Shown: piece after piece, positions 363-35,272 of the stretch | How the letters are laid out: every line of letters begins with the position of its first letter | Position numbering within the stretch: position 1 is the first letter of the stretch | NCBI GenBank assembly: GCA_017483665.1 | Contig: JAFUVM010000070.1 | Location: 1 to 36,044, forward strand | Source of the DNA: Bacteroidaceae bacterium | Lineage (GTDB): Bacteria > Bacteroidota > Bacteroidia > Bacteroidales > Bacteroidaceae | DNA: 36,044 nucleotides | Direction of reading: 5' to 3' | Translations under genes and position numbers: made by a program | Notes under the pieces: generated by a model | The model's input: the letters and a program-made list of their open reading frames with translations, nothing else | Told to the model about the DNA's origin: nothing | Databases searched by the model: none

Positions 363-535
363 TATTTCAAAGGCTTGGAAATAAATTTCAGTGCCTCGGA
401 AATATATTTCCAAGCTTTTGAAATATATTTCCGAGGCACTGAAAAAGTTTTGTTCCGCGGGGCGAGGGATTTGTTCCCGAAGGATGAGAAATTTGTTCGT
501 GTACGGGAAAGAAGTTGTTTCCGCGGGGCGGGCTT
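363..535. repeat. Degenerate tandem array of 21-23 bp units next to the sdaA stop
   Basis: About eight units of roughly 22 bp follow one another, mostly of the form TTTC-N9-GAAA at the left and TTGTTCC-GCGGGGCG at the right. Within it, 386-406 and 424-444 are a perfect 21-bp inverted repeat (TTTCAGTGCCTCGG arm), so 386-444 could fold into a long hairpin. Read on the minus strand, the array begins with the sdaA stop codon itself (TAAGC at 536-532), the same arrangement as the cleaner TAAGC arrays elsewhere in the window. It may serve as the 3' end of the sdaA transcript. Confidence 0.7.
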
Positions 536-5516: not shown

Positions 5517-6753
5517 AGGCTTTGATTTTCCTGTATAGTGTGCGTTCGCTGATGCCGAGCTCTTCGGCGGCCAGCTTGCGGCGGTAGTGGTTGCGCTGGA
5601 GTGCGAGCAGGATGTTGCGCTTCTCCATGTTGCCGATGTTGAGCGTGTCGTCGTCTACGATTTCCTCGGCTGTGGGGATATCCATGTCGAGCGGCTGGGC
5701 GCTTCTGCCTTCGGGCAGGGAATGGTAGGAGTGTGCCATGGGCGATGCCTTTTGCGTGTTGATGGGCACGGGCATCGTGGTGCCGGCCTGTTCGTGCCAA
5801 GGTTCGCCTCTCTGGAGCTTTTCCTTGAGTTCCTGGACTTCGGAGCGAAGCTCGAAGACGGCGTGTGCCAGAATCTTTATCTCCTGTTCGTAGTCATGCT
5901 GAGTGCCCGACCTGCTGCTTCCCGCCAAGGCGACCATGCCGGTATCGGCATCGGAGTTGGGCGTGATGCCGTGCTTGGCAAGCATCTCCGGCGTGATGCT
6001 CCGGCTCTCGGAGAGAATGCTCATCTGCTCCGTGATGTTGCGCAGCTGTCGTATGTTGCCGGGCCACTTGTAGGAGTTGACTACGGCCTCTGCCTCGGGG
6101 GTGAGGCGTATGGGTTCGGGGATGTTGTAGCGCTGAGCCGTGTCGAGCGCGAACTTCTTGAAGAGGAGGACGGCATCTCCCTGCCGGTCGCGCAGGGGCG
6201 GAATCTTGATGTTGATGGTGCAGAGGCGGTAGTAGAGGTCTTCGCGGAAGCGTCCCTGCTTGATGGCGTTGGGTATGTCGACGTTTGTAGCGGCCACGAT
6301 GCGTGCGTTGGTCTTGCGCGGTGTGCTGCTGCCGACGCGCAGGTATTCGCCTGTCTCGAGTACGCGGAGCAGCCGTGCCTGTGTGCTCATGGGCAGTTCG
6401 CCCACCTCGTCGAGGAAGAGTGTGCCGCCGTCGGCTGCGCCGAAGTAGCCTTCGTGTTCGCCGATGGCGGAGGTGAAGGCGCCCTTCTCGTGTCCGAAGA
6501 GCTCGCTGTCGATGGTTCCTTCGGGTATCGAGCCGCAGTTGATGGCGATGTAGGTCTTGCCGCGTCGCTTGCTGTGGTCGTGAATGACGCGTGGTATGAC
6601 TTCCTTGCCCACGCCGCTCTCTCCCTGTATGAGTACGGAGAGGTCGGTGGGTGCCACGAGAACGGCTGTGGCGAGGGCTTCGCGCAGAGCCTCGTTGCGA
6701 CCCACTATGCCATAGCGGTTCATCAGCGTCTGCATGTCGGGATTTGCTGTCAT
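5500..6753 (-). CDS. Sigma-54-dependent transcriptional activator (AAA+ and Fis-type HTH)
   Basis: The 417-residue protein starts almost directly with the AAA+ domain. Walker A GESGVGKE is at 44-51, the sigma-54 contact loop reads GAFTSA at 91-96 (canonical GAFTGA), Walker B GTLFLDEVGE is at 110-119, and FREDLYYRL follows. A variable linker spans about 265-370, and a Fis-type helix-turn-helix ends the protein (NHYRRKLAAEELGISERTLY). There is no receiver, GAF or PAS domain, so its activity is not controlled through an N-terminal sensor in this chain. It overlaps the PdxA-like gene by 4 bases (ATGA) and lptE by 17. Targets are unknown; the setting suggests envelope stress or assembly. Confidence 0.93.
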   Translation of the reverse strand: MTANPDMQTLMNRYGIVGRNEALREALATAVLVAPTDLSVLIQGESGVGKEVIPRVIHDHSKRRGKTYIAINCGSIPEGTIDSELFGHEKGAFTSAIGEHEGYFGAADGGTLFLDEVGELPMSTQARLLRVLETGEYLRVGSSTPRKTNARIVAATNVDIPNAIKQGRFREDLYYRLCTINIKIPPLRDRQGDAVLLFKKFALDTAQRYNIPEPIRLTPEAEAVVNSYKWPGNIRQLRNITEQMSILSESRSITPEMLAKHGITPNSDADTGMVALAGSSRSGTQHDYEQEIKILAHAVFELRSEVQELKEKLQRGEPWHEQAGTTMPVPINTQKASPMAHSYHSLPEGRSAQPLDMDIPTAEEIVDDDTLNIGNMEKRNILLALQRNHYRRKLAAEELGISERTLYRKIKAYGIDE

Positions 6754-7559
6754 GATTCCTTTTCGGAGTTATCTGTTTCGTTGTTTGCCTGTTGTGTCTC
6801 GTTTTTCTTGCGCTCGTCCCGTTTGTCGCGGAAGAGCTTGGGCAGGATGTTCTGCCGTGCCTCGTCGTAGGAAGCGCGGTTGCGGATGATGTCGATGGCT
6901 GTGTAGAAGGGGTGTGTCAGCCACGAGACGTCGGCCATTCCCTCCTCCGGCTCGTCGGTCCGCCCCGGTTGGCAGATGGCTGTGACGACCGCCTCGCGGC
7001 CTGCATAGTAGCGTACCGGTGCTTCCTGCCGGGTGTCTCCGATGATGCGTTGCAGCAGTTCTTTGCCTCTGACGATGATGCCGTCGAAGTGTATTGCCGT
7101 GTCGTCGGCCAGGATTTGTTCCGGGGTGTAGGGTCCGTAGGTGTTGATGCCGGATGCTTCCGTCACTTGGCTGGCGAGGTCGGGGTTCTGCATGGCGGTC
7201 TCCTGGACGAAGGCGATGCGCGGCGAGCGCAGGTCGAAGTCACGCTCCAGGATGTCGCGAAGCCTGACGATGTCCTCGGCGGTCGGCTCCTCGGCAAGGG
7301 GCATGAGGCAGGTCTTCTCTGTCACGACTATCTCGAAGGCGTTGGCGGGGCACTTCGCCGGCCCGTCTGTCGGGGCGAGCACCAGGGCGTCCACCTTGCC
7401 TTCGTCCACGTCGCGAAGTGCCTGCTCTTCTTCGCCTGCTCCGTAGGGAACGGGTGTGCAGAGCTCGAGCATCGCGGGGTCCTCGAGAATCTTGGCGGAG
7501 AGTTCCTGCGCCGAAGCGGTGTATTTACCGGAAGTGATGGCTATCTTTAGCTTTTCCAT
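6750..7559 (-). CDS. Degenerate PdxA-like protein
   Basis: The 269-residue protein aligns by eye along much of 4-hydroxythreonine-4-phosphate dehydrogenase: LKIAITSGKY and EDPAMLELCTPVPYG at the N-terminus, GKVDALVLAPTDG at 54-66, ILERDFDLRSPRIAFVQ at 103-119, GINTYGPYTPEQIL at 137-150, FDGIIV at 158-163, and FYTAIDIIRNRASYDEA near the end. It is clearly shorter than PdxA (about 330-365), and the motifs that carry the metal and substrate ligands (GHTE, YHDQG and SPDHGTA in PdxA) are absent or changed. Enzyme activity is therefore unlikely. The gene is intact and coupled to the sigma-54 regulator, so it may have a new role. Confidence 0.7.
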   Translation of the reverse strand: MEKLKIAITSGKYTASAQELSAKILEDPAMLELCTPVPYGAGEEEQALRDVDEGKVDALVLAPTDGPAKCPANAFEIVVTEKTCLMPLAEEPTAEDIVRLRDILERDFDLRSPRIAFVQETAMQNPDLASQVTEASGINTYGPYTPEQILADDTAIHFDGIIVRGKELLQRIIGDTRQEAPVRYYAGREAVVTAICQPGRTDEPEEGMADVSWLTHPFYTAIDIIRNRASYDEARQNILPKLFRDKRDERKKNETQQANNETDNSEKES

Positions 7560-7636: not shown

Positions 7637-7702
7637 GTTGAATTGTCATGAATGTTCAATTGAATCTTCATGAATGTTCAATTGAATCATCATGACAATT
7701 CA
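7637..7702. repeat. Three 22-bp palindromic units (TTGAATTGTCATG family)
   Basis: Exactly three units of 22 bp (7637-7658, 7659-7680, 7681-7702), each close to the palindrome formed by TTGAATTGTCA and its complement. On the minus strand the first unit begins TGA, which is the stop codon of the DUF4837 gene. A nearly identical three-unit copy lies at 26296-26361. Confidence 0.9.
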
Positions 7703-8812
7703 ATGGTTCTTGCCTGCTGTGTCTTTTGTGTCGCTGTGTTGTGCCGGTTTCTTCTCCTCTTCCAGCCCTGTGTCGATGAGCGTGAACTGTTCCTCGGGGA
7801 GCTGCAGGGTGTAGAGCGAGCCTTCGAGTCGGCGTATGAGTCCGCGCTTCATCTTCTCCGGCGCATAGACGAAGCCTTCGACTACGATGACGCGGTTTGT
7901 CTCTGTGTCGACGCGTGAGTGGCTGACGAAGGGGCCGCCCATGCAGTCGTTCTCCATGTACCAGAGGCCGCGGGCCTCCATTGCATAGCGGTTGTGGACG
8001 ACGATGGGCTTGACTGCCGAGCACAGCGTGTCGGTCTTCATGTACATGCCGGGGCGCTCGCCGGGCAGGTTCGCCTTCATGACAGAGTCGCGCTTGGCAA
8101 GCATGTACGCCTTGTTGAACGTCTCGGGTCCCTCGTAGGGATAGCTGTACATGACGATGTTCTCCAGTCCGCTGGCCGTGTTGTTGCTCGTCCAGAAGAA
8201 CTGTTCGCCCTTCTTGAAGCTGGTCAGTTCCTTGGGCGCATGGAAGTGGCAGGCGAAGATTTGCCACGCCAGGTCGTAGGTCACCTTGGAGTATTTCTTC
8301 TCCAGCTCCTTGATGAGGCGGTTCATCTCGGAGCGCGTCAGGAAGTCGATGACCTCCTGCTTGTGGTCGATGCAGAACTGCCGGAGGTCGTCCTTGCTGG
8401 GGCTGTTGATGGTGAGCACAATCTGGTCCATAGCATACTTGTTGCGCATGAAGCGCATGCCTGTGCGTGAGAACTGCGTCCGGTCGATGTTGACCTGGAT
8501 GATGTTGCGGAAGATGCTGAAGGTCTGGTCCAGGTCCTTCGGCTCGATCTGCATGATGCGGAACGAGCGTTCGCTCTGCGGCAGGAAGGGCACGTCGGTG
8601 TCGAGGATGTCGAACAGGGCGCGTCCGGCAGGCTCCTCCCACGTCTTGTTGTCGAGCACGACGAGCACCTCATAGGGGCGTCCGCTGGCCTGCGGGAAGA
8701 AATGCTCCTTCTTGCAGCCGGACAAAAGAAATAAACAGAGGAGTAGAGCCAGCCCCCTCCCCGCTCCCCCTTTGGGGGAGTGCTTGAAACAATATGGTAT
8801 CATGTTCTTCAT
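7700..8812 (-). CDS. DUF4837 family lipoprotein
   Basis: The 370-residue protein is exported as a lipoprotein: LALLLCLFLLSGCKK gives a lipobox with Cys near residue 33. The body (GRPYEVLVVLDNKTWE at the start, YSYPYEGPETF and GLWYMENDCMGGPFVSH later) fits the Bacteroidetes family DUF4837, whose function is unknown. Residues 10-20 (KHSPKGGAGRG) come from a palindromic repeat inserted into the n-region of the signal peptide. The stop codon is the first base triplet of a 22-bp repeat unit. It follows rlmN, and its start codon lies in the loop between two inverted repeat copies. Confidence 0.8.
   Translation of the reverse strand: MKNMIPYCFKHSPKGGAGRGLALLLCLFLLSGCKKEHFFPQASGRPYEVLVVLDNKTWEEPAGRALFDILDTDVPFLPQSERSFRIMQIEPKDLDQTFSIFRNIIQVNIDRTQFSRTGMRFMRNKYAMDQIVLTINSPSKDDLRQFCIDHKQEVIDFLTRSEMNRLIKELEKKYSKVTYDLAWQIFACHFHAPKELTSFKKGEQFFWTSNNTASGLENIVMYSYPYEGPETFNKAYMLAKRDSVMKANLPGERPGMYMKTDTLCSAVKPIVVHNRYAMEARGLWYMENDCMGGPFVSHSRVDTETNRVIVVEGFVYAPEKMKRGLIRRLEGSLYTLQLPEEQFTLIDTGLEEEKKPAQHSDTKDTAGKNH
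8753..8785 (-). repeat. SPKGG-type palindromic element inside the DUF4837 gene
   Basis: The core CTCCCCCTTTGGGGGAG is flanked by GC-rich sequence. Read on the minus strand in frame it encodes HSPKGGAGRG in the signal peptide of the DUF4837 lipoprotein. It is an inverted copy of the element at 8841-8871, with 30 of 31 positions matching. Confidence 0.85.
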
Positions 8813-16097: not shown

Positions 16098-16221
16098 GCG
16101 AGAAAATGTGAATTGCCACATACAAATCTTACGGATTCTATTACCATTATTACTGATTTTGCAGTTTAGCCGGGCCGCCGGAGCCTGCCGTGTCGATTAT
16201 CGCCGCACGTCGTGCCGTGGG

Positions 16222-16331
16222 TAAGCGCCTTGCTCTTCCAAAATAAGCGCGAGGCGCTTCGGGAATAAGCGCGAGGCGCTTCGGGAATAAGCACGAGGCG
16301 CTTCCGAAATAAGCGCGAGGCGCTTCGGGAA
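16222..16331. repeat. Five 22-bp TAAGC units abutting the mutY stop
   Basis: Five units of exactly 22 bp begin at 16222, 16244, 16266, 16288 and 16310. Each starts TAAGC and most continue with GCGAGGCGCTTC, so each unit holds an internal dyad (GCGC/GCGC, AAGC/GCTT). The array ends at 16331 and the mutY stop (16332-16334) follows directly. Related units lie at 19541-19565 and 35151-35272. Confidence 0.95.
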
Positions 16332-17432
16332 CTACTCCCTTTCCAATCTCTCCAGAAGCTTCTCCAGAAGGCGGGGCAGGGCGTAGCGGTCGAGGTCGGA
16401 CTCCTTGACCCATTGACCATTGATTATTGACCATTGACCATTAACCATTGATTGTTGACCATTGATTGTTTGGCTTTCCGGGGCTTTTGCCAATTCGTCG
16501 TTGACTTGGGGTAAGGCCAGAAGGTACAGGTCGGCATGCAGGCGCTGGTGGGTGAGCTGGTGGCGGACGTCGCTGGCAATGAGGGTCAATGCCCCTTTGG
16601 CAGAGAGGCGCTGCTCCACTTCTGCCATTGCGAGCGGCTTTTCCGACTCTATCAACGGGAACTCGAACAGGCCTTGCCAGATGTCACCGCTGCCGCGACG
16701 GTGGAGTAGGGTGTGGCCGTCCCTCGTGCGCACGTATATATAAGTAAGGTAACGGTCGCGGACGGCGGTGCGCTTCGACTTGGCGGGCAGCCTGTCGACG
16801 CTGTGCTCCCTGAGTGCGTGGCAGGTGTCTTGGAGCGGACAGGTGCTGCAGAGCGGGGAGACAGGCTTGCACAGCAGGGCACCGAAGTCCATGATGGCCT
16901 GGTTGTAGAGGGCGGGTCGGCGGCGGTCGAGCATCTCGTCGGCCAGGGCGCGGAGCAGTTTCTTTCCCTTCGTGGTGTCAACGGGTTCGTCGATGCCGAA
17001 GTGGCGGGCCAGTACGCGCTGCACGTTGCCGTCGAGCACGGCGTACGGTTCGTCGAAGGCAAAGCTCATGATGGCGGCTGCGGTGTAGTCGCCCACGCCG
17101 GGCAAAGCCCTGACGGAAGCATAGTCCCGGGGAAAGCTGCCTGCCTGTGCAACCTGCTTAGCGGCGGCATGCAGGTGGCGCGCCCGGCTGTAATAGCCCA
17201 GGCCTTGCCAGAGCAGCATCACGTCCTCCTCGCTGGCAGCGGCCAGGTGTTCGGCCGTAGGATAGCGCTGTGCAAAGCGCAGATAGTAGTCCATGCCCTG
17301 GCTGACCTGCGTCTGCTGCAGGATAAGCTCCGAGAGCATGATGAGGTAGGGGTCGCGTGTGTGACGCCAAGGCAAGTCGCGTCCGTGCTCGGCGTACCAA
17401 TGCTCCAAAAGGTCGGAAAAAGCGGATGTCAT
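16332..17432 (-). CDS. mutY: A/G-specific adenine glycosylase MutY
   Basis: MutY removes adenine paired with 8-oxoguanine. The 366-residue protein has the catalytic Glu in SELILQQTQVSQG, the helix-hairpin-helix LPGVGDYTAAAI, the catalytic Asp in VLDGNVQRV, and the 4Fe-4S motif Cx6Cx2Cx5C (CKPVSPLC-STC-PLQDTC). The C-terminal NUDIX-like domain, which reads 8-oxoG, is interrupted near residues 320-341 by a stretch (INGQQSMVNGQWSIINGQW) encoded by a heptanucleotide repeat array, after which the usual end (KESDLDRYALPRLLEKLLE) resumes. A TACTTTTG box lies five bases before the ATG, so the mRNA may be leaderless. Function is secure; the repeat is odd. Confidence 0.95.
   Translation of the reverse strand: MTSAFSDLLEHWYAEHGRDLPWRHTRDPYLIMLSELILQQTQVSQGMDYYLRFAQRYPTAEHLAAASEEDVMLLWQGLGYYSRARHLHAAAKQVAQAGSFPRDYASVRALPGVGDYTAAAIMSFAFDEPYAVLDGNVQRVLARHFGIDEPVDTTKGKKLLRALADEMLDRRRPALYNQAIMDFGALLCKPVSPLCSTCPLQDTCHALREHSVDRLPAKSKRTAVRDRYLTYIYVRTRDGHTLLHRRGSGDIWQGLFEFPLIESEKPLAMAEVEQRLSAKGALTLIASDVRHQLTHQRLHADLYLLALPQVNDELAKAPESQTINGQQSMVNGQWSIINGQWVKESDLDRYALPRLLEKLLERLERE
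16412..16467. repeat. Heptanucleotide repeat array (ATTGACC) inside mutY, 8 units
   Basis: Eight contiguous 7-bp units, mostly ATTGACC with ATTGATT and ATTAACC variants. On the minus strand in frame they encode NGQW/SMV-type heptapeptides within the MutY C-terminal domain. Because 7 is not a multiple of 3, loss or gain of one unit shifts the frame of the last 25-30 codons. Confidence 0.93.
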
Positions 17433-19540: not shown

Positions 19541-19565
19541 TTATTCCGGAAGCGCCTCGTGCTTA
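19541..19565 (-). repeat. 22-bp TAAGC unit carrying the pdxT stop codon
   Basis: On the minus strand the pdxT stop is the first triplet of a full unit (TAAGCACGAGGCGCTTCCGG then AA), followed by the start of a second (TAAGCGCG). The unit is nearly identical to those in 16222-16331. Confidence 0.85.
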
Positions 19566-20135
19566 GTTTCCTGACGCGACCATCTTCAGGAACAGTTCAT
19601 GGATGCTGGTGTCGTCGGTCAGCTCAGGGTGGAAGGCTGTGACGAGCATATTGCCTTGCCGGGCTGCCACGGCTTTGCCATCGACGCGGGCAAGGATGTC
19701 GACCTCCGGACCTGCCTCTTCGATGTAGGGAGCGCGGATGAAGGTCATGGGGACGCGTCCGATGCCCGCAAACTCCCCCTCCGTGTTGAAGCTTCCCAAC
19801 TGTCTGCCATAGGCATTGCGACGGGCCGTGAGGTCCATCACACCGAGGTGGTTCCGGTCGAGCATGATGAGGCCGGCACAAGTCCCGAGCACAGGAAGTC
19901 CGTCGAGAATGGCCTGTCTGAGAGGCTCGAACAGGCCTTCGTCCTTCATGATGCGCATCATGGCTGTGCTCTCGCCGCCGGGGATTGCCCACCCTCTCAT
20001 TCCCCCAAAGGGGGAAGACATGAAGTTACGCCAATCTGCCAAGTTGCGGATGAGTGTTGTCTCAGCCCCAAGTTGCCTGAACATCTGTTCGTGCTCAGCA
20101 AAAGCTCCTTGCAGAGCAAGTATAGCAATCTTCAT
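19563..20135 (-). CDS. pdxT: Pyridoxal 5'-phosphate synthase glutaminase subunit PdxT
   Basis: PdxT frees ammonia from glutamine for PdxS in the DXP-independent vitamin B6 pathway. The 190-residue protein has GALQGAF-type opening ([11 protein letters not shown]), PGGEST, the nucleophile in GTCAGLI and the HxE pair in FHPELTDD. Compared with B. subtilis PdxT there are about eight extra residues just before PGGEST (SSPFGGMRG, about 40-48), encoded by a palindromic repeat in the gene. The residues lie on the way to the active-site loop, so activity should be tested. The gene overlaps pdxS by four bases, and its stop is in a 22-bp TAAGC unit. Confidence 0.95.
19999..20016 (-). repeat. SPKGG-type palindromic element inside pdxT
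   Basis: TTCCCCC-AAA-GGGGGAA lies in frame in pdxT and encodes SSPFGG on the minus strand. It belongs with the elements at 8753, 8841, 28715 and 35741. Confidence 0.75.
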
Positions 20136-26295: not shown

Positions 26296-26361
26296 GTTGA
26301 ATTGTCATGAATGTTCAATTGAATGTTCATGACAGTTCAATTGAATCATCATGACAATTCA
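26296..26361. repeat. Three 22-bp palindromic units (TTGAATTGTCATG family), second copy
   Basis: Three exact 22-bp units (26296-26317, 26318-26339, 26340-26361) that match the array at 7637-7702 almost base for base. Here it lies between the GT4 gene stop (26424) and the GH57 start (26239). Confidence 0.92.
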
Positions 26362-26423
26362 AAGAGGTCGGCGTGTCGTGTCTGTCTGTGTGGCTCATCT
26401 TCCTTATATATATAATATGGTAT

Positions 26424-30656: not shown

Positions 30657-30661
30657 GTACC

Positions 30662-30770
30662 ATTGACTATTGACCATTGACCATTGACCATTGAACCATT
30701 GACCATTGACCATTGACCATTGAAGATTGACCATTGAACCATTGAAGATTGACCATTGAAGATTGAAACC
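30662..30770. repeat. Heptanucleotide repeat array (ATTGACC/ATTGAAG) upstream of the GH84 gene
   Basis: About fifteen units of ATTGACC, ATTGAAG and 8-9 bp variants (ATTGAACC, ATTGAAACC) fill the whole spacer between the regulator stop (30656) and the GH84 ATG (30771). The same unit lies in the mutY coding sequence. Copy number changes here would alter the leader or spacing but not the protein. Confidence 0.93.
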
Positions 30771-32861
30771 ATGAGACGACACGTATTCTTTGTGCTGCTT
30801 TGGGCGACATGTCTTTGCAGCTTTGCTGAGAGACGCGAACTGACAGGAACCTTTGGCGATAAGGCCGTCAAAGCTTATCGGAAGAAGATTCCCGAGCAGG
30901 CCGAGGGCTATTATCTGAGGGTCACGCCATCGGAGACCGTTGTGGCCGGCAGGGATGAAAGCGGAACGTTCTACGGCGAGCAGGCGTTAAAGACCCTCTC
31001 TGACTCTTCCCTGAAGGGAGATGAGCTGTTCAGCTATCTTAGAAAACAATATAAGGAAGTCTTCCCTCTGGAAGGAGATTCAGAGGGGACTTCATTTGAA
31101 ATTCGCGACTGGCCGAGCGTCAGCTGCCGAGGTGTCATTGAGGGTTTCTACGGCAACCCCTGGAGCCATGAGGACAGGCTGCGGCAGTTCGACTTCTACG
31201 CTGGGCACCGGCTGAACATCTACGTCTATGGACCGAAGGACGACCCCTATCATCGTGCCCATTGGCGCGAACCTTATCCCGAGGCTGAGGCAAAGAAACT
31301 GAAGGAACTCGTCGAGGCTGCGCATCGCAATCACGTGCAGTTCGTCTGGGCCATCCATCCCGGAGGCGACATCCAATGGAACAGGGCGGACAGCCAGGCC
31401 GTAGTGAACAAGCTGAACCTCATGTACGGGCTTGGCATCCGCACGTTCGCCGTCTTCTTCGACGACATCGGCGGTGAGGGAGCAAGAGGCGAGAAACAGG
31501 CAGGCCTGATGAACTATCTGACCGATGCCTTCGTGCGCAAGCACAAGGACGTGCAGCCGCTCATCATCTGTCCGACGCAGTACAACAAGGCATGGAGCGG
31601 GGGCGACTACCTCTCCACGCTCGGCACGAAGATGTACCCCGAGGTGCGCATCATGTGGACGGGCAATTCGGTGGTCGACATGATAGAGCGCGACGACATG
31701 GAATGGATCAACGCGCAAATCAAACGCAAGGCGTTCATCTGGCTCAACTATCCTGTCAACGACTACTGCCAGAGCCGCCTGCTCATGGGCAAGACCTACG
31801 GCAACGGACTCGACATCGCCGACCTCGTCTCCGGCTTCTGCAGTAATCCTATGGAGTACGCCGAGGCCTCGAAGGTGTCGCTCTGCAGCATAGCCGACTA
31901 CTGTTGGAACATGCCTGCCTACGACGCCGAGCTGTCCTGGAAGCAGGCTCTCGACGAGCTGATGCCGACGAGCAAGGAGGCTTTCCGCTTCTTCTGCGAG
32001 AACAACATCGACCTCGGCAAGACGGGGCACGGCCTGCGTCGCGAAGGTGAGAGTCCCGACTTCGGTAAGGTTCCCAACGAAACTTACTTTTCCCGTCTCG
32101 TCACAGAGGCAGATGCTCTCCTTGCCGACAGCCTTTCTCAGCCCGAGATGTTGCGGGAGATTGCGCCTTGGGTAGAGAGCATGCGGGTGCTCGGACAGCG
32201 GGGACTGCAAGTGACGGCCATGCAGAAGGCTCTCGGACAGCAGGATTCCCTGGGCTTCGTGGCGCATTATCGTGCCTTGCAGAAGCTTGAGGAGAAACAG
32301 AAAGGCATCGTCAGCCGCAACTTCGAAGGCTCTGTCGTCAAGGCAAAACCTGTCGTGAGCGGCACCGTCGTCACGCCATGGATAGCAGAGGAAACGACTC
32401 GTCTCGTCAAGGACTACAAGAAACAGTTCGCCTACGGGCGCGAGTTCTTCCCGCAGCAGGTTGTCGAGGACGGACTATATTATATAATGTATAGGGGCAA
32501 GTACCTGACCGACGTGAATGCGGCGGCCGACCGTACGGGCGACTTCCCGCAGTTCGTGGCCGAGCCGGACACTATCAATCCGCAGCGGCAGCTCTGGAGC
32601 ATCGAGCTCGTGCCTGCAACGGGTCGCTATAAGATAACGAATGCCCAGGACGGTCGCTACGTCAACGAGCAGGGCACCTTCTGGCAGGGCAAGGCTCAGA
32701 ACCCGTTCGAAGCCGAGTGGCACACCTTCATCATCGCCAAAACGACCGATGGCTACACTATCCAGTGCGGCGGCCGTGCCGGCTCAAACTACTGGAAAGC
32801 CGACGCCGACCGCATCAAGAATGACAAGGAAGGAACGGCCTTCCAGATAAAGGCCCCCTGA
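30771..32861 (+). CDS. Exported GH84 beta-N-acetylglucosaminidase (O-GlcNAcase type)
   Basis: The 696-residue protein has a signal peptide (HVFFVLLWATCLCSFA) and the GH84 domain: CRGVIEGFYGNPWSHEDRL (119-137) and the catalytic Asp pair in FFDDIGG (D231, D232), matching the double Asp of Bacteroides BtGH84. A helical region and a C-terminal beta-trefoil-like part (about 560-696, YYIMYRGKYLTDV) follow. It removes terminal beta-GlcNAc from host or dietary glycoproteins in the periplasm or outside. The region at 78-106 (SSLKGDELFSY...GDSEGT) is longer than I expect and may hold another short repeat. ATG 30771 gives the signal peptide; an earlier in-frame codon lies in the heptamer array. Confidence 0.92.
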   Translation: MRRHVFFVLLWATCLCSFAERRELTGTFGDKAVKAYRKKIPEQAEGYYLRVTPSETVVAGRDESGTFYGEQALKTLSDSSLKGDELFSYLRKQYKEVFPLEGDSEGTSFEIRDWPSVSCRGVIEGFYGNPWSHEDRLRQFDFYAGHRLNIYVYGPKDDPYHRAHWREPYPEAEAKKLKELVEAAHRNHVQFVWAIHPGGDIQWNRADSQAVVNKLNLMYGLGIRTFAVFFDDIGGEGARGEKQAGLMNYLTDAFVRKHKDVQPLIICPTQYNKAWSGGDYLSTLGTKMYPEVRIMWTGNSVVDMIERDDMEWINAQIKRKAFIWLNYPVNDYCQSRLLMGKTYGNGLDIADLVSGFCSNPMEYAEASKVSLCSIADYCWNMPAYDAELSWKQALDELMPTSKEAFRFFCENNIDLGKTGHGLRREGESPDFGKVPNETYFSRLVTEADALLADSLSQPEMLREIAPWVESMRVLGQRGLQVTAMQKALGQQDSLGFVAHYRALQKLEEKQKGIVSRNFEGSVVKAKPVVSGTVVTPWIAEETTRLVKDYKKQFAYGREFFPQQVVEDGLYYIMYRGKYLTDVNAAADRTGDFPQFVAEPDTINPQRQLWSIELVPATGRYKITNAQDGRYVNEQGTFWQGKAQNPFEAEWHTFIIAKTTDGYTIQCGGRAGSNYWKADADRIKNDKEGTAFQIKAP

Positions 32862-32881: not shown

Positions 32882-33073
32882 GCCGTTCTGGCGGATTTGC
32901 AATCCGCCAGCATATACTATAAGCATTTGCAATGCGAAAATAAATACAATGGAAAGAGTTACGGATTACAAATCCTTATATTCAATGCGGTCGGATTGCA
33001 AATCCGACCGAACAGGGCGAACAGGGAAATCCGACCGAACAAGGACGATGTGCTTCCTCTTCGTTATGTTGGT
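32882..33073. repeat. REP palindrome block, copy A, with first 26 bases of the esterase gene
   Basis: The 192-bp block holds palindromes GGCGGATTTGCAATCCGCC, GCATTTGCAATGC, GGATTACAAATCC and GGTCGGATTGCAAATCCGACC. Its last 26 bases (33048-33073) equal the start of the esterase gene (34035-34060). Apart from a 54-bp expansion in copy B, it is identical to 33815-34060. Confidence 0.92.
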
Positions 33074-33074
33074 C

Positions 33075-33143
33075 CCGTTCTGGCGGATTTGCAATCCGCC
33101 AGCCAGAAATATAAGCATTTGCAATGCGATAATAACAGAACCA
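33075..33143. repeat. Partial REP block before the RAYT gene
   Basis: Starts again with CCGTTCTGGCGGATTTGCAA and holds GGCGG/CCGCC and GCATTTGCAATGC palindromes. It lies directly before the RAYT start and is probably the left REP of the transposase unit. Confidence 0.8.
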
Positions 33144-33147
33144 TGAA

Positions 33148-33684: not shown

Positions 33685-33710
33685 TGATAACAGCTATGAA
33701 AGTTAATGCG

Positions 33711-33800
33711 GATTACAAATCCTTATATACAGTGCGGTCGGATTGCAAATCCGACCGAACATGCCGAACAGGGAAATCCGACCGAACAGGGCGAACAGGG
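33711..33800. repeat. REP block downstream of the RAYT gene
   Basis: Holds GGATTACAAATCC and GGTCGGATTGCAAATCCGACC palindromes and CCGAACAGGGAAATCCGACC. It is a diverged copy of part of blocks A and B. Confidence 0.85.
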
Positions 33801-33814
33801 TGGCTCTGGCGGAT

Positions 33815-34060
33815 GCCGTTCTGGCGGATTTGCAATCCGCCAGCATATACTATAAGCATTTGCAATGCGAAAATAAATACAATGGAAAGAGTTACGGATT
33901 ACAAATCCTTATATTCAATGCGGTCGGATTGCAAATCCGACCGAACAGGGGATTACAAATCCTTATATTCAATGCGGTCGGATTGCAAATCCGACCGAAC
34001 AGGGCGAACAGGGAAATCCGACCGAACAAGGACGATGTGCTTCCTCTTCGTTATGTTGGT
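33815..34060. repeat. REP palindrome block, copy B, with 54-bp tandem duplication
   Basis: The same 192-bp sequence as copy A, but with a 54-bp unit duplicated in tandem (33897-33950 and 33951-34004). It runs into the esterase gene and ends after 26 bases of it. No gene lies in 33685-34034. Confidence 0.92.
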
Positions 34061-35153
34061 CTTTGCACCTGTTGTGGCGCAGGATTATACTGCCATTCGC
34101 CAGCAATGGCTTGATAGTCTGAAGGCGGCGACGGCTGACATCCTACGCGACAGCATCATCCGGCAGGACGGCGACAGCATGAAGCTCTGGTGGACGACCT
34201 ACGGCGATAGGCCTGCCGACGGGCGTAGCCTCTGGATCAGTCTGCACGGAGGCGGCGGGACGACACCCGAAGTCAACGACCAGCAGTGGCGCAACCAGAT
34301 GCGTCTCTACCGTCCCGCCGAGGGCGTCTACGTGGCTCCGCGCTCGCCCCTCGAGGCGTGGGACATGTGGTGCCAGCAGCCCATCGACAGCATGTATCGT
34401 GTCCTCATCCGCACCATGATAGCACACTACGATGTCAATCCCGACAAGGTCTACATCCTGGGCTATTCGGCGGGCGGCGACGGCGTTTGGCGCATGGCAC
34501 CGCGCATGGCCGACCACTGGGCTGCAGCCAGCATGATGGCGGGGCATCCAGGCGACGTACGGCTGGAGAACCTGCTGAACACGCCTTTCATGATATGGTG
34601 CGGTGCAAACGATGCGGCTTACGACCGCAACCGCCTCGACCGCGAGCGCGGCGTGCAGATGGACTCCCTGGAGCGCACGCATCCCGGAGGATACATTCAC
34701 CAGACGCACATCATGGAGGGCAAAGGACACTGGATGGACCGCGAGGATGCAGCAGCCTTGCCGTGGATGGCGCAGTACAAGCGGCAGGCTTGGCCCCGAT
34801 ACGTCATCTGGCAGCAGGAGGCCGTCCTGCGTCCCGACTTCTACTGGCTCTCGGCTCCTGCCGGTGAGCTGCAGCGCGGCAAGCGCGTCGATGCTGAGGT
34901 CCAGGCAGGCACCATCATCATCCGCCGCTGCGACTACTCGTCCCTGACCCTCTATCTCAGCGATGAGCTCCTCGACCTCTCGAAGCCCGTCACCGTCAGA
35001 TACCTTGGAAAAGACAAGCCACAGGGCAAGGGCAAGAAGGTCTTCAAGGGCAAAGTCACGCCCAGCGCCGAGACTTACCGCCAGACACTCCACCGTCGTC
35101 AGGACCCACGCTTTGCCGCTCCTTGCCGGATAACAGTGGCCCTTCCGAAATAA
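34035..35153 (+). CDS. Exported alpha/beta hydrolase (esterase / PHB depolymerase-like)
   Basis: From ATG 34035 the protein has 372 residues and a short signal peptide (MCFLFVMLVFAPVVAQ). The frame is open upstream through the REP block, but those residues are repeat translation. The oxyanion motif HGGGG is at 71-75, the nucleophile elbow GYSAGGD at 143-149 (Ser145) and the likely catalytic His in EGKGHWMD. The C-terminal 100 residues form a small beta domain. Such enzymes remove acyl or feruloyl groups from polysaccharides. The stop codon TAA is the first triplet of a 22-bp repeat array. The substrate is not determined. Confidence 0.83.
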   Translation: MCFLFVMLVFAPVVAQDYTAIRQQWLDSLKAATADILRDSIIRQDGDSMKLWWTTYGDRPADGRSLWISLHGGGGTTPEVNDQQWRNQMRLYRPAEGVYVAPRSPLEAWDMWCQQPIDSMYRVLIRTMIAHYDVNPDKVYILGYSAGGDGVWRMAPRMADHWAAASMMAGHPGDVRLENLLNTPFMIWCGANDAAYDRNRLDRERGVQMDSLERTHPGGYIHQTHIMEGKGHWMDREDAAALPWMAQYKRQAWPRYVIWQQEAVLRPDFYWLSAPAGELQRGKRVDAEVQAGTIIIRRCDYSSLTLYLSDELLDLSKPVTVRYLGKDKPQGKGKKVFKGKVTPSAETYRQTLHRRQDPRFAAPCRITVALPK

Positions 35154-35272
35154 GCGCCTTGCCCTTCTGCGATAAGCGCCTTGCTCTTCCGAAATAAGCG
35201 CTAGGCTCTTCTGAAATAAGCGCTAGGCTCTTCCGAAATAAGCGCTAGGCTCTTCTGCGATAAGCGCCTTTA
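35151..35272. repeat. 22-bp TAAGC array spanning the esterase and carB stops
   Basis: Five full 22-bp units start at 35151, 35173, 35195, 35217 and 35239, then a partial unit from 35261. The first TAA is the esterase stop, and the carB stop (35270-35272) lies at the other end. The whole gap between the two converging genes is therefore array. Confidence 0.95.

Follow-up and report, generated by a model that had tools for sequence, protein, structure and literature searches.

Repeats and adjoining genes in the window

The window, by which we mean the whole stretch of 36,044 nucleotides analysed here, carries several short tandem repeats between its genes. The following features are referred to throughout.

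363..444, no strand: repeat of 21-bp period (GAAATATATTTCC type) near the sdaA end, belonging to a family other than TAAGC (TRF)
7638..7703, no strand: three 22-bp near-palindromes of the form TTGAA-N3-TCATGA-N3-TTCAA, 66 bp in all, overlapping the DUF4837 stop
16220..16329, plus strand: TAAGC-family array of five 22-bp units (AATAAGCGCGAGGCGCTTCCGA type), just beyond the 3' end of mutY (profile)
16332..17432, minus strand: mutY, adjoining the array (HhH-GPD, NUDIX_4)
19546..19567, minus strand: single TAAGC unit, the TAA of which is the stop codon of ORF 19563-20135 (profile)
26297..26362, no strand: second palindromic element of 3 x 22 bp, between a glycosyltransferase gene and a GH57 gene
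35149..35258, plus strand: TAAGC-family array of five units that fills the convergent gap between ORF 34035-35153 and carB (profile)

At a cut-off of 13, the TAAGC profile scored at only three places of the window, namely the mutY end, the single unit at 19546 and the array at 35149. Since mutY lies on the minus strand, its array is antisense to the gene and begins right after the stop codon (16332-16334) in the sense of the gene. The five tandem units described at this site in the initial annotation were recovered, ending within 2 bp of the stop; TRF placed the array at 16242-16331. Likewise, the first unit of the array at 35149 does supply, with its TAA, the stop codon 35151-35153 of ORF 34035-35153, which had been called an esterase and gave no Pfam hit, and the TRF version of this array (35142-35270) extends to the first base of the carB stop, in line with the claim that the repeats border it. 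The stop codon of ORF 19563-20135, for which pdxT is the label of that annotation only, is supplied by a TAAGC unit as claimed, but by a single unit, not by an array. A palindromic 22-bp family was also correctly placed over the DUF4837 stop; this element sits 78 bp before the next ORF (6750-7559). The statement that degenerate units start at the sdaA stop did not hold, as no TAAGC-type unit scores there and the repeat at 363-444 is of a different family with a period of 21 bp. This GAAATATATTTCC repeat is followed by CACTGAAAAAGTTTTGTTCCGCGG, and similar modules flank 22-bp arrays elsewhere in both sister species.

TAAGC arrays across the genome

The window belongs to the 3.06-Mb genome (G000) of a rumen-type bacterium. 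When up to two mismatches were allowed, the pattern AATAAGCGCNAGGCGCTTC matched 365 times in this genome, and the reversed control pattern gave no match. In 858 kb of this genome, we found 262 TAAGC units in 71 arrays, of which 11 were single units. Neighbouring units were chained into an array only when at most 50 bp apart, and the spacing was exactly 22 bp in 188 of 191 neighbour pairs and 44 bp in the other three. These 858 kb comprise 61 stretches (20 unselected, the window, and 40 picked mostly for known array matches), so that array densities and the absence of arrays restricted to the sister species are biased; roughly half of the sister stretches likewise came from contigs with matches. 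In the unselected stretches, TRF gave 8.1 arrays per 100 kb. The sister genome (G061), whose reciprocal-best proteins show a median identity of 89.6% to those of G000 (147 pairs), contained 637 matches to a related TAAGC pattern.

The genome is a 78% complete assembly. The majority of the genomes used are metagenome bins, which could in principle favour an origin of the arrays by assembly artefact or plain chance. We consider such an origin to have a negligible probability, given the silent reversed pattern, the recurrence of arrays at orthologous sites of separately assembled bins, and a 22-bp array in the record of Phocaeicola intestinalis strain Sa1CVN1 (L068), which is not titled as a metagenome-assembled genome.

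Position relative to genes and stop codons

Genes were called with a simple caller based on codon usage, which recovered 36 of 39 E. coli stops in one test stretch. The 71 TAAGC arrays were distributed over tandem gaps (29), convergent gaps (19), divergent gaps (9), stretch edges (11) and called genes (3). Compared with random placement within the same gaps, array edges of the 57 placeable arrays lay more often within 6 bp of a stop codon (12 versus 6.4 expected, P = 0.003) or within 30 bp of one (26 versus 15.4, P = 0.001), and less often within 30 bp of a start (1 versus 6.9, P = 0.002). Convergent gaps held 19 of the 57 arrays against 15% of the intergenic bases (P = 0.0006), and the nine arrays in divergent gaps matched the share of bases there (P = 0.51). 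Coding sequence was not wholly free of repeats: besides the three TAAGC arrays, 3 of 83 TRF arrays and two perfect 22-bp duplications of this genome fell in called genes.

The first TAA coincided with a stop codon in 6 of the 71 arrays (19546 and 35149 in the window; L099 at 17120, L102, L109 and L114), two of which are single units; in the two window cases the letters themselves show the coincidence, and in the other four it was derived from a 5-base overlap. Use of the TAA as a stop codon is a mechanical result of a TAA-bearing unit abutting a gene in the sense orientation. Thus, there is a modest but real bias towards stop codons and a clear avoidance of starts, and the arrays are not a stop-codon module; a strict gene-end rule is ruled out by the arrays between divergent genes.

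The initial annotation had interpreted the repeats as a gene-end module that spreads by copying beside stop codons, and had named the lack of a stop-codon excess or of a fixed 22-bp period as grounds for taking the pattern as chance. The period proved near absolute, and the excess at stops real but modest. That interpretation is therefore partly supported: the arrays are real and form a dispersed, copied family biased to gene 3' ends, but the stop-codon rule applies only in part and a gene-end module acting as RNA did not emerge.

Folding and strand preference

The proposal that the arrays act in RNA, as a hairpin stabiliser or terminator at gene ends, draws on their enrichment in convergent gaps and near stops and on the folding of some of them. 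The mutY array folded better than shuffled sequences on both strands (z -4.2 and -3.6), and both palindromic elements of the window folded as one long hairpin each (z -5.8 and -6.4). However, the array at 35142-35270 was no more stable than its shuffles (z +0.9 and -0.6), arrays in tandem gene pairs showed no strand preference (12 in the same and 17 in the opposite orientation, P = 0.46), and divergent gaps held arrays at the usual frequency. No intrinsic terminator, that is, a GC stem followed by a T run, was seen at the two window arrays scanned. Furthermore, stem positions vary without compensation. At the pair of positions 7 and 13 in the sister units, G-C occurred 128 times, A-C 86 times and G-T 24 times, and A-T was absent from the seven listed classes, which cover 245 of 247 units. 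This uncompensated variation rules out an RNA hairpin kept by covariation. With neither a compensated stem nor a preferred strand, a role as an RNA module at gene ends appears very improbable.

Up to E = 1, Rfam gave no match to either the TAAGC or the TTGAA arrays. A sub-threshold match of the microRNA type on the 21-bp repeat (370-451, E 0.5) was taken as chance. Elsewhere in the window, 2674-2770 on the minus strand gave a sub-threshold match to the Bacteroides sRNA BTnc060 (63 bits, gathering threshold 229).

The units had also been said to contain inner dyads. The full-unit dyad score of 81 arrays of this genome was 5.75, compared with 5.60 in shuffles, and only three of them reached p<0.05, which excludes a dyad common to all 22-bp units. 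An excess was found in relatives, where 6 of 23 units in the near group, 3 of 10 in the genus sample and 5 of 18 in the far group reached this level.

Different units in congeners and comparison of the same sites

Several members of the genus showed one unit amplified to hundreds of dispersed copies. The TAAGC unit had at most eight matches in any of 36 other genomes of the same genus, only G013 having more than one (8), and was not found at up to one mismatch in 117 other genomes of the phylum. Genome G027 contained 448 copies of a different unit, ATCGCCGCACGCGG (ATCGCCGCACGCGGNNATTG), with a single match to the reversed control and at most four in each of ten other genomes, and G036 contained 338 copies of the TATCACGTGGGTAAAATGAA unit, with at most one in each of ten others. 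Spacings in G036 were 22 and also 43 bp, so that 22 is not absolute there.

The same gene boundaries carried different units in different genomes. At mutY ends, 22-bp arrays of three unrelated unit groups were found in five genomes: TAAGC units in G000; TAAGC units plus a second unit in the sister species (L009, 4936-5053 for the TAAGC-family array) and in G020; a unit related to this second one (15 of 22 positions) in G012; and an unrelated unit in G027. No array was present within about 260 bp after the stop at 24 of 28 mutY loci, one of which had a flank of 32 bp only. Upstream of ORF 6750-7559 and its orthologues, arrays of three families occurred at 5 of 10 loci, our own included. The gap at ORF 19563-20135, which holds a single TAAGC unit in the window, is occupied in the sister species by a 22-bp array of a different family (L009, 1594-1755).

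We compared 103 conserved gene pairs between G000 and G061. TAAGC units were present in both species at 10 pairs, in G000 only at four and in G061 only at none; thus, 10 of the 14 arrays that our genome has in these pairs were also in the sister, with the same orientation in 9 of 10. Copy number differed in most arrays common to the two. In 19 array rows anchored on both flanks, some of them reciprocal, 12 differed in length by an exact multiple of 22, including four with zero difference, and the other seven did not. The non-zero differences, from six distinct loci, were 22, 44, 132, 132, 176 and 396 bp, the locus with 396 bp being doubtful as the sister segment is only partly periodic. In places, one species had degenerate units where the other had longer and more homogeneous arrays. 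Many arrays keep their gene boundary in the sister species while their copy number shifts, often by whole units.

A unit length of 22 bp irrespective of sequence

The favoured unit length was 22 bp whatever the letters. At 80 loci of mutY relatives, TRF reported 45 arrays at period 22, 14 at 21 and 11 at 7, and the period-22 arrays consisted of many unrelated units. When families were counted as distinct units among near-perfect tandem duplications, 1617 kb of our genome and its sister G061 yielded 52 dissimilar families at 22 bp, at 194 loci, all 52 of them intergenic. In the same sequence, we obtained 13 families at 21 bp (8 intergenic), 11 at 18 (4), 8 at 14 (4), 8 at 44 (8), 5 at 24 (1), 3 at 20 and 3 at 23. 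Our genome alone had 94 period-22 loci and 29 families in the 858 kb examined. All families at 22 bp were also intergenic in stretches of near relatives and the genus (11 families in 524 kb) and at 66 more distant mutY loci (9 families in 734 kb), a group named by record titles only, mostly Bacteroides, Prevotella, Phocaeicola, Bacteroidaceae and similar. No near-perfect duplication of 22 bp was counted in 339 kb of sequence from the order's other families or in 300 kb of E. coli K-12, although TRF gave one period-22 array in 239 kb of the former.

Autocorrelation of intergenic sequence over lags 5-79 gave 22 as the top lag in four of six groups, with z values of 7.5 in our genome, 9.4 in the sister, 5.8 in near relatives and 3.4 in the genus sample; it did not lead in the far group (1.7; the top lag there was 12) or in the order group (0.9). 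After strong arrays had been masked, the remaining 22-bp period was weak (z 2.3 and 2.0). Perfect duplications of two to fewer than three copies also peaked at 22 bp (34 of 54 intergenic in our genome and 36 of 43 in the sister); 11 and 20 of these, respectively, were not TAAGC-like, and some of the duplications are segments of longer TAAGC arrays.

The families may not all be of separate origin. Many have words in common, CACG and GCAAAC among them, and may share descent; CACG occurs in 29 of 82 families, as compared with 12.6 expected. A partner matching at 14-15 of 22 positions was found for 38 of the 52 families (16 of 52 with 14 or more in shuffled units), and 14 of 52 had no match above 13 of 22 to any other (36 of 52 when shuffled). 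Since many families are related, independent origins are fewer than 52.

Register of the units and palindromic elements

The sister TAAGC units contain a 15-bp core in both orientations inside the same linker. In the sister, AAGCAC was accompanied by the loops GAG, GGG, AGG, TAG, GTG or AAG in 83 of 83 cases and GTGCTT by the loops CTC, CCC, CTT, TTC, CTG or CCT in 21 of 21. Our genome showed the same pairing with few flipped units (50 and 4; among the 50, one loop was CTG and one was CGG). The palindromic core thus looks as if it had been inverted, which template switching, for instance, might bring about. Sister loci L202-L241, e.g., L220 at about 3203, display the core in both orientations with linked loop and stem variants.

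Adjacent TAAGC units differed at 1217 bases, and only one spacing was not a multiple of 22. From the ratio of indels to substitutions in intergenic sequence (0.095), about 116 odd spacings would be predicted, which favours selection on spacing over copying alone; a unit with an indel can, however, drop below the profile cut-off and be missed in this count. TRF supported such a register less strongly: imperfect arrays of the 22-bp type lacked indels in 87 of 100 cases in our genome, 88 of 109 in the sister and 9 of 20 in near relatives, as compared with 56 of 76 and 38 of 56 for arrays of other periods.

The palindromic family shows a further regularity. Its 66-bp element is an imperfect palindrome with at least 11 copies in our genome, and each of the 11 arrays of TTGAA..TCATGA..TTCAA listed there has exactly three units; in the wider TTG..CATG..CAA family, all eight arrays examined, from three genomes, have three. 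A looser pattern gave 24 unit pairs in our genome against 22 expected from 11 arrays of three, indicating that a twelfth array or a longer one exists. Among congeners, the letters change symmetrically, TTGAA/TTCAA going with TCATGA and TTGCA/TGCAA with ACATGT. Head-to-tail pairs of TTG-N6-CATG-N6-CAA occurred in 4 of 201 genomes of the family, all four among the 13 of this genus, and were strongly amplified in G358 (155 pairs).

One explanation for these data is that a putative DNA-binding protein occupies units two helical turns apart, with selection preserving the 22-bp register as letters and protein co-evolve. The nearly indel-free register, the three-unit palindromic arrays, their symmetrical changes between congeners, the excess of dyads in relatives (p<0.05 against shuffles in 14 of 51 units) and a second peak at period 21 in the sister species are all consistent with it. 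On the other hand, 52 dissimilar families at one period are too many for one sequence-specific protein, and sites near starts are avoided instead of used. Two turns of B-DNA are closer to 21 bp than to 22, and yet 21 is far rarer; there is also no peak at three turns (31-33), and the extra palindrome pairs point to a twelfth or a longer array. We regard phasing by a protein as possible, though unlikely, and the two readings, protein phasing and the copying process described below, are not mutually exclusive.

Proposed copying in steps of 22 bp

We favour instead the view that the arrays are satellites dispersed between genes, which a putative copying process builds in 22-bp steps, and give it a little less than an even chance. 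Duplication, gain and loss of units, and copying of units to other sites would all proceed in steps of 22 bp, and the same process may both make and homogenise the arrays. In favour of this view are the common period of many families, the length differences of whole units between the sister species, the amplification of separate units in separate species, the occurrence of unrelated units at one site, and the small number of flanks that arrays have in common. Coding sequence would lack arrays because an addition of 22 bp shifts the frame, and the region before starts because insertions would be harmful at such sites. What remains is gene 3' ends and convergent gaps, which would explain why arrays so often lie beside stop codons and why the TAA of a unit sometimes serves as the stop. 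A bolder form of this view, in which a ruler owned by the lineage, be it an enzyme or a replication complex, makes and amplifies 22-bp intergenic duplications irrespective of sequence, we consider conceivable but doubtful. If it were true, species would acquire their own genome-wide satellites by a fixed-length, sequence-independent form of genome writing, a process for which we found no description in the open-access literature searched. Several results speak against the copying view. Our search revealed no enzyme, the TAAGC register looks maintained by more than copying, 7 of the 19 anchored rows do not fit multiples of 22, many families are related, a few repeats fall in called genes, and G036 also has 43-bp spacings. 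The arrays moreover look static instead of freely mobile, the majority of those in conserved gene pairs being present in the sister as well.

A rival explanation is that REP-type palindromes are moved by a RAYT (Y1 transposase); REPs are likewise intergenic, biased to gene ends and often stop-supplying (PMC3733652). The window does contain one Y1_Tnp gene, the only match in this genome (33148-33684, plus strand; IS200-like, RAYT-type). It is flanked, though, by another repeat (GGCGGATTTGCAATCCGCC / CGGTCGGATTGCAAATCCGACCG) and not by 22-bp arrays. Y1_Tnp was found in 6 of 17 genomes and, within incomplete bins, not in G036 with its 338 units, and neither a GTAG nor a CGTC tag is present on either strand of the unit consensus AATAAGCGCGAGGCGCTTCCGA. 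At the Y1_Tnp loci of G027, G035, G013, G061 and G003, no run of any of the three array units tested was detected, and there was one lone TAAGC-like match, in L325. The different flanking repeat and the array-rich G036, whose incomplete bin gave no Y1_Tnp, led us to reject a RAYT as the driver, and movement of REP-type palindromes in general seems improbable here. The palindromic repeat GGCGGATTTGCAATCCGCC ... CGGTCGGATTGCAAATCCGACCGAACAGGG lies on both sides of the window Y1_Tnp (about 32890-33145 and 33700-34030), which is how a REP element and its transposase are arranged.

Comparison with known repeats

A search of the open-access literature for 22-bp repeats in Bacteroidales, Bacteroidetes, Prevotella and P. 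gingivalis returned only BrickBuilt, REP and heptamer repeats as neighbours. BrickBuilt, a minisatellite-MITE of Porphyromonas gingivalis, has 23-nt units at 19 loci, with a leader, a tail and terminal inverted repeats of the IS5 type, and strain W83 has tandem repeats of 22, 23 and 41 nt (PMC4596501). Going by this account, the arrays have in common with BrickBuilt and the W83 repeats spacer-free intergenic tandem units of about 22-23 nt at many loci, species-restricted sequence and variable copy number, and differ from BrickBuilt in having 22-bp units at 94 loci in 858 kb of our genome, most arrays without common flanks, and many dissimilar families at one period. In our genome, 50 of 60 flanks upstream and 48 of 59 downstream of arrays were unlike any other array flank; in the sister, the figures were 47 of 51 and 34 of 51. 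A minority of downstream flanks are alike. On this basis, we rejected a common leader and tail of the MITE kind.

REPs are tagged palindromes of 20-40 bp, largely singletons or dimers, which often supply the stop of flanking ORFs (PMC3733652). Like REPs and BIMEs as portrayed there, the arrays lie scattered in intergenic DNA, favour convergent and tandem gaps near 3' ends, and provide stops; unlike REPs, they are spaced head-to-tail at 22 bp, carry no tagged palindrome, occur in divergent gaps as well, and showed no cognate RAYT, that is, no Y1 transposase flanked by the same repeat. The TAACTGA heptamer repeats of Beggiatoaceae, Cyanobacteria and Bacteroidetes have a 7-bp unit of one sequence and lie mostly just upstream of starts (PMC4679880). 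They resemble our arrays as fixed-length intergenic direct repeats that occur in many sets by a mechanism not known, and differ from the present 22-bp units, which have many sequences and avoid starts. These three systems share habits with the arrays, but not the combination of a single length with many sequences: the dispersed repeats compared here are defined by their sequence, whereas in the present arrays the length is constant and the sequence free.

Eukaryotic satellite DNA forms species-specific libraries, in which unit length is kept while the sequence is replaced and homogenised in each species. The arrays are similar in their constant unit length and species-specific letters, and different in being small, mostly of 2-10 units, and dispersed between bacterial genes. 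Bacterial genomes are generally regarded as poor in satellite-like DNA. Here, the unit length is constant, and unrelated units have expanded separately in congeners, in part at shared gene boundaries, which makes it possible to test how tandem repeats of fixed length originate. The arrays also blur gene ends by supplying stop codons, and could serve to type strains.

Periods 7 and 14 are frequent in the lineage as well. In the window, an array of ACCATTG-type heptamers lies within the mutY ORF (16405-16465), and residues of about 316-343 of the MutY protein match short stretches elsewhere in this and other genomes. A longer ACCATTG heptamer array, with 14 copies, is located at 30659-30772.
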